From Lachnospiraceae bacterium (GTDB lineage: Bacteria; Bacillota; Clostridia; Lachnospirales; Lachnospiraceae), in NCBI GenBank assembly GCA_017469945.1, contig JAFUFI010000031.1:1-64000 (forward strand): a stretch of DNA of 64,000 bases. Direction: 5' to 3'. Shown here piece after piece: positions 8,921-11,998 of the stretch. The notes under the pieces are model-generated. The model made no database searches. It was not told the DNA's origin and saw nothing but the letters and a program-made list of their open reading frames with translations. The translations under genes were made by a program, and so were the position numbers. The first letter of the stretch is position 1; the number at the start of each line of letters is the position of its first letter.

Positions 8921-8953
8921 ATGAACCCCCAACCCCGTCCCCGGGGGTCAAAA
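8921..8953 (+). repeat. GC-rich palindromic repeat, copy 2 (doublet A, first)
   Basis: 33-bp unit beginning ATGAACCCCC three bases after the exporter stop codon. Core is AACCCCGTCC and the end is CCGGGGGTCAAAA. The terminal arms can pair into a hairpin. Copy 3 follows after 2 nt. Confidence 0.92.
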
Positions 8954-8955
8954 AA

Positions 8956-8988
8956 ATGAACCCCCAACCCCGTCCCCGGGGGTCAAAA
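8956..8988 (+). repeat. GC-rich palindromic repeat, copy 3 (doublet A, second)
   Basis: Identical to copy 2 over the whole 33-bp unit and separated from it by AA, giving a 35-bp period. It ends 9 nt before the DUF4250 start, so the ribosome binding site AGGAGA lies at its right edge. Confidence 0.92.
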
Positions 8989-8996
8989 GGAGAGAT

Positions 8997-9176
8997 ATGT
9001 TACCAAAAGACGCAAATATGCTGCTTAGTATGATCAATATGAAACTCAGAGACAGATACGGCAGTCTTGACGAGCTTTGCGAGGATTTGGACGAGAGCAA
9101 GGCGGAGATCTCTGAAGTTTTGGAAAACGCCGGATACAGATACGACGAAGCCACAAATCAGTTTAAGGGAAAATAA
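8997..9176 (+). CDS. DUF4250 family small protein
   Basis: 59 residues (MLPKDANMLLSMINMKL... to NQFKGK). The N-terminus MLPKD-x2-MLLSM-x-N-x-KLRD, the central SLDELCEDLD and the C-terminal GYRYDEATNQF match what I remember of the DUF4250 family of short Firmicute proteins of unknown function. AGGAGA sits just upstream of the ATG. It appears to be a helix-turn-helix-like mini-protein with no signal peptide or membrane segment. A repeat doublet flanks it on each side, placed directly after the stop codons of the exporter and of this gene. It may be co-transcribed with the exporter and murL. Confidence 0.8.
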   Translation: MLPKDANMLLSMINMKLRDRYGSLDELCEDLDESKAEISEVLENAGYRYDEATNQFKGK

Positions 9177-9180
9177 AAAA

Positions 9181-9213
9181 ATGAACCCCCAACTCCGTCC
9201 CCGGGGGTCAAAA
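9181..9213 (+). repeat. GC-rich palindromic repeat, copy 4 (doublet B, first)
   Basis: 33-bp unit starting 4 bases after the DUF4250 stop codon. It has AACTCCGTCC in the core, like copy 1, rather than AACCCCGTCC. Confidence 0.92.
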
Positions 9214-9215
9214 AA

Positions 9216-9248
9216 ATGCCCCCCCAACCCCGTCCCCGGGGGTCAAAA
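9216..9248 (+). repeat. GC-rich palindromic repeat, copy 5 (doublet B, second)
   Basis: Separated from copy 4 by 2 nt. The left arm reads ATGCCCCCCC instead of ATGAACCCCC; the rest matches copies 2 and 3. It ends 12 nt before the murL start. The ATG inside it is in frame with murL and would add 15 proline/arginine-rich residues, which I regard as an artefact of the repeat. Confidence 0.9.
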
Positions 9249-9260
9249 AAGGAAAGATAT

Positions 9261-10712
9261 ATGGCAGGCGAGCAGTTTAGAGATTTAAGAGAAAAGTATA
9301 AAAAGTTTATATATAAAAGCTACGAAAAGAGTATAGAAGAGGACAGTCTTGTCCTTAAGTATAATTTTGAAATTGAGGGGCTTGAGAGCTTTGTATCAAA
9401 GTGGAAATTCCCGCTTAAGGTGATAAAAGAGGGAAAAGCGGAAAATGCGAAGATACTAAGCATTAAAACCCCGGAAGAGATCCTTAAGGATGATATTTTA
9501 GACAGGATGATCTTTTCCCTTGGGATGGTTGAAACTATCAGCTATTACAAGATCACTTGCCCGAAGACTGTTGTTATAGACTGCGGAAATCTCACAAATA
9601 AGCAGCAAAAGTGGTGGCAGAAGCTCTACCGAAACGGCCTTGGAGAATTCTTATATATCAACGGAATCGAGTATATTGAGCCCGAGGAACTTGTTAATTT
9701 TGCTACCAGTGATGTTAAGAGAAAAAGCGGAGCGGAAGGTTACGCAGAAACCTCCGAAAAAGAAAAGCCTAAACAAGACGAGAGCTTTCCTCTTTGCGAT
9801 AATGCAACCTACGAGGGCGCTCTTGTTCCCGTAGGCGGCGGAAAGGATTCCTGCGTAAGTCTTGAAATCCTTAAGGGTGAGCCTATAATCACATACACTG
9901 TCAACGGAAACGATACTACGAGGAATGTTATAGACTGCTGTGATTACAAGGAAGGAGACTACGTCGCAAAGAGAATCCTTGATAAAAAGATCCTTGAGAT
10001 GAACGAAAAAGGATTTATGAACGGACATATTCCTTTCTCGGCTGTTGTCGCTTTTTCCGCTGTCATCTCGGCTTATATTACGGGAAGGAAAAACATCACT
10101 CTCTCAAACGAAAACAGCGCCAATGAGTCCACGGTAAAGGACTCGTTTGTTAACCATCAGTACTCCAAATCCTTTGAATTCGAAAAGGATTTTAATGAGT
10201 ATTTTAGGACCTTAACGGATTCGGATATACATTATTACAGCCTCTTAAGACCACTTACGGAGCTTCAGATAGGAAGCCTTTTTGCAAAGGCAAAAAAGTA
10301 TCATAAAGTCTTTCGAAGCTGCAACAGAGGAAGCAAGCAGGGAATCTGGTGCTGCAATTGTCCGAAATGCCTTTTCGTCTACATCATACTGTCTCCGTTT
10401 ATACCGGAGGAAGAGCTGGTTAATGTCTTTGGCGAAAAGCTTCTTGATAAAGAAAGCCTTGACCTTGATTTCAGAGAGCTTTGCGGCATCGAGGAAAACA
10501 AGCCTTTTGAGTGTGTCGGAACAAGAAGAGAGGTTCTTGCCTGCCTTAAAAACTACATAGGTAAAGGCGGAAAGAGTCTTTTGACGGACAGATATTCGGA
10601 CCAGCTACAAAAGGTATTCTACGATGTTAAGGAAATGCTTGCGGAGTGGAATGAAGAAAACATGGTTCCGGATGCATACCTAGAGAAAGTAAGGAATGCA
10701 ATCGAAGGCTGA
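9261..10712 (+). CDS. murL: Probable UDP-MurNAc-L-Ala-L-Glu epimerase (MurL)
   Basis: 483 residues, cytosolic. Motifs fit MurL, which epimerises the terminal L-Glu of UDP-MurNAc-L-Ala-L-Glu to D-Glu in an ATP-dependent reaction. Seen here: the P-loop-like VPVGGGKDSCVSLEIL, then SNENSANESTV, VNHQYSKSFEFE, YYSLLRPLTELQI, SCNRGSK, the Cys pair motif CCNCPKCLFV, and KPFECVGTRRE near the C-terminus. The start at 9261 follows AAAGGAAAGATAT and excludes the repeat-encoded extension. The next gene is a Mur ligase, exactly the partner expected (MurD2), which supports the call. Residues 165-185 are Lys/Glu-rich and probably a linker. Family recognised from memory, not by search. Confidence 0.83.
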   Translation: MAGEQFRDLREKYKKFIYKSYEKSIEEDSLVLKYNFEIEGLESFVSKWKFPLKVIKEGKAENAKILSIKTPEEILKDDILDRMIFSLGMVETISYYKITCPKTVVIDCGNLTNKQQKWWQKLYRNGLGEFLYINGIEYIEPEELVNFATSDVKRKSGAEGYAETSEKEKPKQDESFPLCDNATYEGALVPVGGGKDSCVSLEILKGEPIITYTVNGNDTTRNVIDCCDYKEGDYVAKRILDKKILEMNEKGFMNGHIPFSAVVAFSAVISAYITGRKNITLSNENSANESTVKDSFVNHQYSKSFEFEKDFNEYFRTLTDSDIHYYSLLRPLTELQIGSLFAKAKKYHKVFRSCNRGSKQGIWCCNCPKCLFVYIILSPFIPEEELVNVFGEKLLDKESLDLDFRELCGIEENKPFECVGTRREVLACLKNYIGKGGKSLLTDRYSDQLQKVFYDVKEMLAEWNEENMVPDAYLEKVRNAIEG

Positions 10713-10759
10713 TTCTATTATAATTAAAAGAAAGATATTACGCATAACAGGTAAGGAAA

Positions 10760-11998
10760 ATGAAAACATTAATACGCGATGCGGTAAAAGATAAAAGAAT
10801 ACTGATCTGGGGCTACGGACGTGAAGGAAAGGCCTCCGAGAGATATATTAAGGAGCAGTGTCACCCGAAGTCTGTGGAAGTCTTTGAGGGCAAGATTGAG
10901 GACATATTGGAGAGCGAGTACGATATGATCATCAAAAGCCCCGGAATCGTTATGCAGGAGTACGAGCCCTGCGACAAGAAAAAGTATACATCTCAGACGG
11001 AGCTTTTCTTAAACCAGTACAGAGACCAGGTTATCGGAATTACCGGTACAAAGGGAAAGAGTACGACCAGCGCGATGATGGCGCATGTCCTCAGACAGTG
11101 CACGAACAGACCCGTTATACTCCTTGGAAACATCGGATTTCCATGCATGGATTACTGTGAGGAGATTGACGAGGATACGATTATTGTGTTTGAACTTTCC
11201 TGTCATCAGTTAAGGCATACAAACGTATCTCCCCATATAGCGGTGTTTTTGAATCTTTTTGAGGATCACCTTGATTATTACCATTCAATGGATTCATATT
11301 TCCTCGCAAAGAGCCGTATTACAAAATCTCAGGTAGAGGGAGACTATTTTTATAAAGGTGAGAATGTTCCCGATATCGAGACTAAGGCCGAGACAAGGAT
11401 AATTAAGGCAGATGAAGTTGTGGATATCCCTCTTAAGGTCTACGGGGAGCATAACGAGTTTAACGCAACCGTTGTAAGAAGTATCGCAAGGGACATCTAC
11501 GGATGCAATGATGCCGATATCACCCAGGCCCTTGAGAGTTTCAGCGGCCTTGCGCACAGGCTTCAAAACATTGGAACCTACGGCGGGATCACATGGTATG
11601 ATGACTCGATTTCAACCATCCCCGAGGCGGCTATAGGAGCTTTAAACAGTATTCCCGATGTAAAAACGATTCTTATCGGCGGTATGGACAGAGGAATCGA
11701 CTACCATATCCTCGAAGAATATATGGCGGAAAACGGACAGTTTAACTATATCTGTATGTATGAATCCGGTAAGAGAGTTCATGATGAATTCTTATACAGA
11801 TACCCGCAGTTTAGAAACGCCGGAGCGGACAGATGCGTTGTCTACGTAAACGACCTTGCAACTGCGGTAAAAAAGGCGGCGGAGATTACCCCGGAAGGAT
11901 GTGGCTGCGTTCTTTCGCCGGCAGCGGCTTCTTACGGATATTTCAAGAATTTTGAGGAGCGAGGCAATGTGTTTGCCGAGCTTATTAAAGAGATATAA
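10760..11998 (+). CDS. murD2: UDP-MurNAc-L-alanine:L-glutamate ligase (MurD2-type Mur ligase)
   Basis: 412 residues, shorter than the roughly 450 of canonical MurD. Rossmann-like N-terminus (ILIWGYGREGKASERYI), ATP-binding GITGTKGKSTTSAMMAH, central ELSCHQLRH and NLFEDHLDYY, and C-terminal HRLQNIG, YDDSISTIPEA and LIGGMDRGIDY. These are Mur ligase landmarks. The fold alone does not tell L-Glu from D-Glu specificity. The L-Glu assignment rests on the adjacent murL and the known MurD2-MurL pathway, in which MurD2 adds L-Glu and MurL inverts it. The 47-nt gap from murL has no terminator, so the two are probably co-transcribed. Confidence 0.82.
   Translation: MKTLIRDAVKDKRILIWGYGREGKASERYIKEQCHPKSVEVFEGKIEDILESEYDMIIKSPGIVMQEYEPCDKKKYTSQTELFLNQYRDQVIGITGTKGKSTTSAMMAHVLRQCTNRPVILLGNIGFPCMDYCEEIDEDTIIVFELSCHQLRHTNVSPHIAVFLNLFEDHLDYYHSMDSYFLAKSRITKSQVEGDYFYKGENVPDIETKAETRIIKADEVVDIPLKVYGEHNEFNATVVRSIARDIYGCNDADITQALESFSGLAHRLQNIGTYGGITWYDDSISTIPEAAIGALNSIPDVKTILIGGMDRGIDYHILEEYMAENGQFNYICMYESGKRVHDEFLYRYPQFRNAGADRCVVYVNDLATAVKKAAEITPEGCGCVLSPAAASYGYFKNFEERGNVFAELIKEI

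Follow-up and report, generated by a model that had tools for sequence, protein, structure and literature searches.

Which route brings D-Glu into the peptidoglycan of a Lachnospiraceae bacterium in which a murL-like gene lies next to a Mur ligase gene? The supply of D-Glu is essential to bacterial cell walls, and MurI, the racemase of the canonical route, is a drug target. An alternative, the MurD2-MurL pathway, is known from Xanthomonas oryzae, Micromonospora and Salinispora (Feng et al. 2017; reviewed in PMC8788868 and PMC5808125); the work on Xanthomonas and Micromonospora is the source of both reactions and of the conversion of ATP to AMP. The taxa named for it in the literature are Actinobacteria together with Gamma- and Alphaproteobacteria; orthologues of low similarity have also been listed for cyanobacteria, a fungus and an amoeba. 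The window analysed here is a stretch of 64,000 nucleotides from a genome of 2.62 Mb (37 contigs, 94% complete), which belongs to a gut bacterium, probably one of the rumen. An earlier note had proposed that the gene pair serves the MurL-MurD2 route instead of or beside MurI/MurD.

The gene pair and its surroundings

The adjacent MurL-like and Mur ligase genes that the note had placed at 9261-11998 were borne out. Both lie on the forward strand with 47 bp between them, and rarA follows 2 bp after the ligase gene. The features of the locus are:

9261..10712, + strand: murL, coding for a full-length MurL homologue (NF041275 match, hhalign, predicted fold)
9834..9851, + strand: MurL PP-loop GGGKDS, residues 192-197; predicted ATP/PPi site, invariant in 79/79 homologues
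10320..10370, + strand: MurL C354-x9-C364-x2-C367-x2-C370; predicted zinc site, with Cys in 79, 79, 78 and 79 of 79 homologues
10500..10520, + strand: MurL KPFECVG, residues 414-420, with the invariant Cys418; KPFEC in 79/79 homologues and also in Xanthomonas sacchari MurL
10760..11998, + strand: MurD2-type Mur ligase by sequence, 412 aa (TIGR01087 over cut-off; in a clade with MurL-linked ligases)
11600..11620, + strand: ligase DDSISTI (residues 281-287), whose Ile284 aligns with Lys319 of E. coli MurD; MurD2 signature
8926-8947, 8961-8982, 9186-9207 and 9221-9242: copies of the CCCCCAACCCCGTCCCCGGGGG repeat, with a fifth copy at the window start (195-216)

The start of murL was set at ATG 9261, which yields a product of 483 aa. 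An in-frame ATG upstream at 9216 allows an alternative reading of 498 aa; ATG 9261 is preferred because it is preceded by AGGAAAG and because an 89%-identical relative (L007/L067) starts at the same residue. The closest named relative at the locus, among the matches listed, is the uncultured Lachnospiraceae MAG RUG13622, with a MurL identity of 89%.

In a scan against NCBIfam, the only match of the MurL protein was NF041275 (254 bits, E 1.8e-75, profile positions 53-444 of 447). This is the only MurL model of NCBIfam; it represents Xanthomonadales and has a lineage-specific cut-off of 700 bits, so that automatic annotation by NF041275 would leave the gene unnamed. The Pfam scan gave nothing but one sub-threshold match to DUF6395. 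Had another ATP-pyrophosphatase family matched better, this would have spoken against MurL; the family models searched gave no such match. The reference pair from Xanthomonas is the annotated murL-murD on an X. sacchari plasmid in PLSDB. When a profile of 79 MurL homologues was compared with the NCBI-named X. sacchari MurL by means of hhalign, the probability was 100% over 431 columns with 31% identity; the single-sequence comparison with the window MurL yielded 32%. The landmarks on which the MurL assignment had been based proved real rather than chance similarities: GGGKDS, NHQYSK, SCN, C364, C370 and KPFEC are identical in all 79 homologues, C354 is likewise Cys in 79/79 and C367 in 78/79. 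The KPFECVG segment with Cys418 is a candidate catalytic motif.

Upstream of murL, a GC-rich, partly palindromic repeat with the core CCCCCAACCCCGTCCCCGGGGG and a unit of about 35 bp occurs in four copies around a small ORF. Among the fetched loci it was seen only in the closest relative (L007/L067), with a chance expectation of 0. Terminator-like sites are in excess, mostly from these GC-rich repeats; promoter-like sites occur at chance level, and the Rfam scan gave no match. The small conserved ORF (MLPKDANMLLSMINMKLRDRYGSLDELCEDLDESKAEI..., about 59 aa, 8998-9177) is located between an ABC transporter gene and murL, and we take it to resemble DUF4250.

Predicted fold of MurL and signature of the ligase

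A search by sequence for a solved structure of MurL retrieved short PP-loop matches only. The AlphaFold2 model of the protein has a pLDDT of 92.4. Its best fold match is QatC from the qatABCD defence system (Z 18.1 over 325 residues, rmsd 3.7), followed by QueC (Z 13.1 over 201 residues, and 12.5) and Cap9 (Z 11.7); other PP-loop enzymes reach 7-9. The PP-loop aligns with those of QueC, QatC and argininosuccinate synthase by fold and with that of TtuA by profile. With QueC, QatC and Cap9, MurL thus shares the predicted fold and an xGGxDS PP-loop, which is present as GGGKDS in 79/79 homologues. The substrate of QueC, CDG, is a carboxylate that the enzyme converts in ATP-dependent steps, and the likeness to QueC therefore supports the adenylation hypothesis for MurL. 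QueC is characterized by SGGxDS and the zinc motif C(x)8CxxCxxC, and the spacing in QatC is longer (PMC13329287). The corresponding C(x)9CxxCxxC of the window MurL, a putative zinc site, is one residue longer than that of QueC. MurL differs from QueC in its extra N-terminal and C-terminal parts and in having no significant sequence match: PF06508 (QueC) was not matched in Pfam scans, neither by the window MurL at E 0.01 nor by its relatives at E 1. The reactions differ as well, since MurL epimerises with hydrolysis, whereas QueC-like enzymes catalyze nitrile formation or deazaguanylation. Despite the QatC-like fold, MurL matches no defence model of PADLOC. According to reviews, MurL lacks known domains, and adenylation of the alpha-carboxylate has been proposed, which is a hypothesis for Xanthomonas MurL as well; a mention of MurL together with QueC was not found in the literature covered. 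By its predicted fold MurL is QueC/QatC-like, but it forms a distinct sequence family, and a shared fold is no proof of function. The predicted fold and the PP-loop fit the reported use of ATP with release of AMP and the adenylation of a carboxyl group.

The ligase scores 259 bits against TIGR01087 (MurD; cut-off 212) and is the sole MurD-type ligase found by family search in the genome. In the tree, it groups with the MurL-linked ligases including Xanthomonas MurD2 and apart from the canonical MurDs that come from its own family and order (SH-aLRT 98, with long branches for Xanthomonas and E. coli). Judged by this placement and by its signature residues, the window ligase is of the MurD2 type. 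The signature was derived from an alignment of 37 canonical MurDs and 104 MurD2-type ligases. At the position of E. coli Lys319, all 37 canonical enzymes contain a Lys, while 103 of the 104 MurD2-type ligases, that of X. sacchari included, contain an Ile and the remaining one a Leu. At E. coli position 348, the canonical enzymes contain Lys (35/37) or Arg (2/37), and all 103 readable MurD2-type ligases contain Arg.

In X. oryzae MurD2, E197D changes the stereospecificity, and R358K combined with E197D converts the enzyme to D-Glu (PMC8788868). The window ligase has the MurD2 residue at the position of Arg358 (Arg311), but Asp169 instead of the Glu at that of Glu197. Streptococcus mutans MurD also contains an Arg equivalent to Arg358 and yet prefers D-Glu (PMC8788868), so the Arg alone is not decisive. 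Position 197 is occupied by Glu in 76 and by Asp in 28 of the 104 MurD2-type ligases and hence does not define the clade; owing to Asp169, strict specificity of the window ligase for L-Glu is not assured, and D-Glu is perhaps tolerated too. As to Lys319, S. mutans MurD K330T, which corresponds to E. coli K319T, was selected for acceptance of L-Glu in the presence of MurL, and canonical MurDs with K330T/K319T take L-Glu (PMC8788868). The review treats Lys319 solely as a mutated site (PMC8788868). That Ile naturally takes its place across the whole MurL-linked clade, also in Xanthomonas, was observed in the present analysis and is, as far as the alignment can tell, a new specificity marker.

Distribution of MurL and MurI

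The note had called for a search for murI and a canonical murD elsewhere in the genome. In six-frame family searches of the 94% complete assembly, no PF01177 protein (Asp/Glu-racemase family, MurI) was found, while the same search was positive in 10 of 14 control genomes. These searches likewise detected neither a second MurD nor a D-amino-acid transaminase; the only class-IV aminotransferase is ilvE (391 bits to ilvE_II). MurC, MurE, MurF and Ddl were found above their family cut-offs.

Of 114 related genomes, 30 contain MurL and 74 contain MurI over cut-off; the two never occur in one genome, and 10 genomes lack both. Counted by genus, which is fairer as the window's own genus contributes many related genomes, MurL occurs in 5, MurI in 69, both in 0 and neither in 5 (Fisher p = 1.1e-5). 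All 25 MurL genomes of the same genus lack MurI over cut-off, among them G012 and G027 at 98-99% completeness, and so do the four genomes from other genera that carry MurL (G037, G059, G090, G103). MurL and MurI are mutually exclusive among the relatives examined. Weak MurI matches in congeners were considered as a hidden MurI and rejected; those checked belong to the cysteate/aspartate racemase family, which also occurs in MurL-bearing congeners. When 398 genomes, each at least 95% complete, were drawn from the phylum, MurL was found in one (the window genome only) and MurI in 364. The route is therefore rare across the phylum, though established in some lineages.

A scan of GTDB species genomes yielded at least 581 stretches coding for MurL relatives. 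The best 80 of these belong to Lachnospiraceae (including Pseudobutyrivibrio), other Clostridia, Bacilli, Erysipelotrichaceae and Bacteroidales, as read from record titles, in which MAG names can be wrong; many relatives are titled as rumen or hindgut genomes. A ligase gene directly follows murL in nearly all of the best 80 loci, and the two are adjacent in X. sacchari too. The MurL tree agrees with the ligase tree (Mantel rho 0.87; at most 0.26 in 999 permutations), which indicates that the pair has been inherited together. Some members of the genus have a distance of about 2.6-4 kb between murL and murD2. In a large part of the genus (L152, which is G012, and L016-L031), inserted genes split the two on the same strand; the insert of G012 consists of a lipoprotein-like gene and one other. 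A plasmid search for MurL gave four records, three from Pseudonocardia and one from X. sacchari. Pseudonocardia plasmids, such as pPaSha1 of Pseudonocardia alni (L149, 3926-5326), code for a lone, diverged MurL homologue with 30% identity and no adjoining Mur ligase. The Pseudonocardia plasmid homologue may have another role.

In five congeners and G055 (99% complete), MurL and MurI both went undetected. A MurD2-type ligase was found in three of these congeners, which form one clade that is sister to the window's group in the ligase tree, and in G055:

L151 8146-8425 (G008), L153 (G025), L154 (G016) and L150 (G055): MurD2-type ligase loci without MurL

Apart from murL, the three congeners retain the gene order of the window's group: aspS, a gene for phosphopantetheinyl transferase, two for ABC transporters, the small ORF, murD2, an extra chemoreceptor gene and rarA. 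The small ORF (8228-8402 in L151) lies beside murD2, and murL is cleanly missing between them; neither a remnant at this site nor a murL elsewhere in these genomes was found. Their ligases display the full MurD2 signature, including Glu at position 182. G055 also has a signature ligase, and its sole candidate racemase is a homologue of the cysteate/aspartate type. It appears rather unlikely that these three genomes, possibly also G011 and G019, and independently G055 kept an L-Glu-type ligase, lost MurL and did not regain MurI. The lack of MurL in 5 of 31 congeners is about what their incompleteness (68-99% complete) alone lets one expect and is therefore at best suggestive. Separately, G088 (L043; same order, 99% complete) has a canonical MurD, while MurI, any PF01177 protein, MurL and a D-amino-acid transaminase were not found in it.

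Proposed route and comparison with known systems

The note had left it undecided whether the pair replaces MurI/MurD or coexists with it. Taken together, the lack of MurI, the single MurD, the mutual exclusion of MurL and MurI and the MurD2 signature make replacement the most likely reading of the sequences. With high probability, the MurD2-MurL pair is the only route of D-Glu into peptidoglycan here, in place of MurI and canonical MurD. In this scheme, the MurD2-type ligase would first attach ordinary L-Glu, which would then be flipped in place. MurL, as a QueC/QatC-like PP-loop enzyme, would adenylate the alpha-carboxylate, the presumed site, of the new L-Glu residue with ATP. Adenylation would acidify the alpha-proton, so that the residue could epimerise to D-Glu, and MurE, MurF and Ddl would then act normally. 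That these particular enzymes catalyze the same two reactions as their Xanthomonas counterparts is inferred by analogy.

A different origin of D-Glu would follow if the ligase were a drifted MurD that still adds D-Glu, supplied by the diet or an unrecognised racemase, with MurL acting elsewhere. Such drift would agree with the Asp that the window ligase retains at the position of E. coli Asp182, with the MurD2-type ligases lacking a MurL partner in some relatives and with the cysteate/aspartate-racemase-family proteins of some congeners. It is nevertheless very improbable, given that all MurL-linked ligases but one share the Ile of Xanthomonas MurD2, that MurL and MurI never occur together, that the window genome itself lacks any protein of the Asp/Glu-racemase family, and that adjacency and correlated trees suggest a single pathway.

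The missing 6% of the assembly might harbour murI, in which case the pair would form a second route beside MurI/MurD. This hardly deserves credence: the 25 MurL genomes of the genus, two of them at 98-99% completeness, and the four outside it largely refute it, and a second MurD is absent. A variant compatible with the preferred explanation is a ligase of dual specificity, through which imported D-Glu or the MurL route could be used. The Asp at the Xanthomonas Glu197 position, shared by 28 of the 104 MurD2-type ligases, is in line with it, as E197D shifts stereospecificity (PMC8788868), while Ile284 and Arg311 agree with Xanthomonas MurD2; we consider dual specificity possible but doubtful.

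The preferred explanation, the MurD2-MurL pair as sole route, would mean that rumen and hindgut Lachnospiraceae, cultured Pseudobutyrivibrio included, and other gut lineages make their cell walls without MurI. Inhibitors of MurI should spare such bacteria, and inhibitors of MurD2 or MurL should hit them. Published reviews portray the route as narrow and pathogen-linked. In the literature covered, with subscription papers and preprints outside its scope, no report of the route in Firmicutes or Bacteroidota, nor of MurL together with Lachnospiraceae, was found. The pathway is already known; new are the taxonomically distant members, the specificity marker and the fold assignment. The exclusion with MurI, the replacement of Lys319 by Ile and the QueC-like fold make both the choice between L- and D-Glu in MurD and the use of ATP by MurL directly testable.

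The canonical MurI/MurD route is expected to lead to the same end product, and MurD2 is a homologue of MurD. It differs from the window system, which lacks MurI and whose ligase falls, with good support, into a clade of its own and has Ile in place of MurD Lys319. The Xanthomonas system differs in its host, which is not a Firmicute, and in sequence (the window MurL is 31-34% and the ligase 27% identical to X. sacchari); the window ligase also has Asp, not Glu, at position 197. With the pathway of Xanthomonas, Micromonospora and Salinispora, the window system shares the absence of D-Glu-forming enzymes beside the presence of the other Mur enzymes, full-length homology of MurL, the adjacent murL-murD2 order, and Ile at K319 together with Arg at K348 in the ligase.
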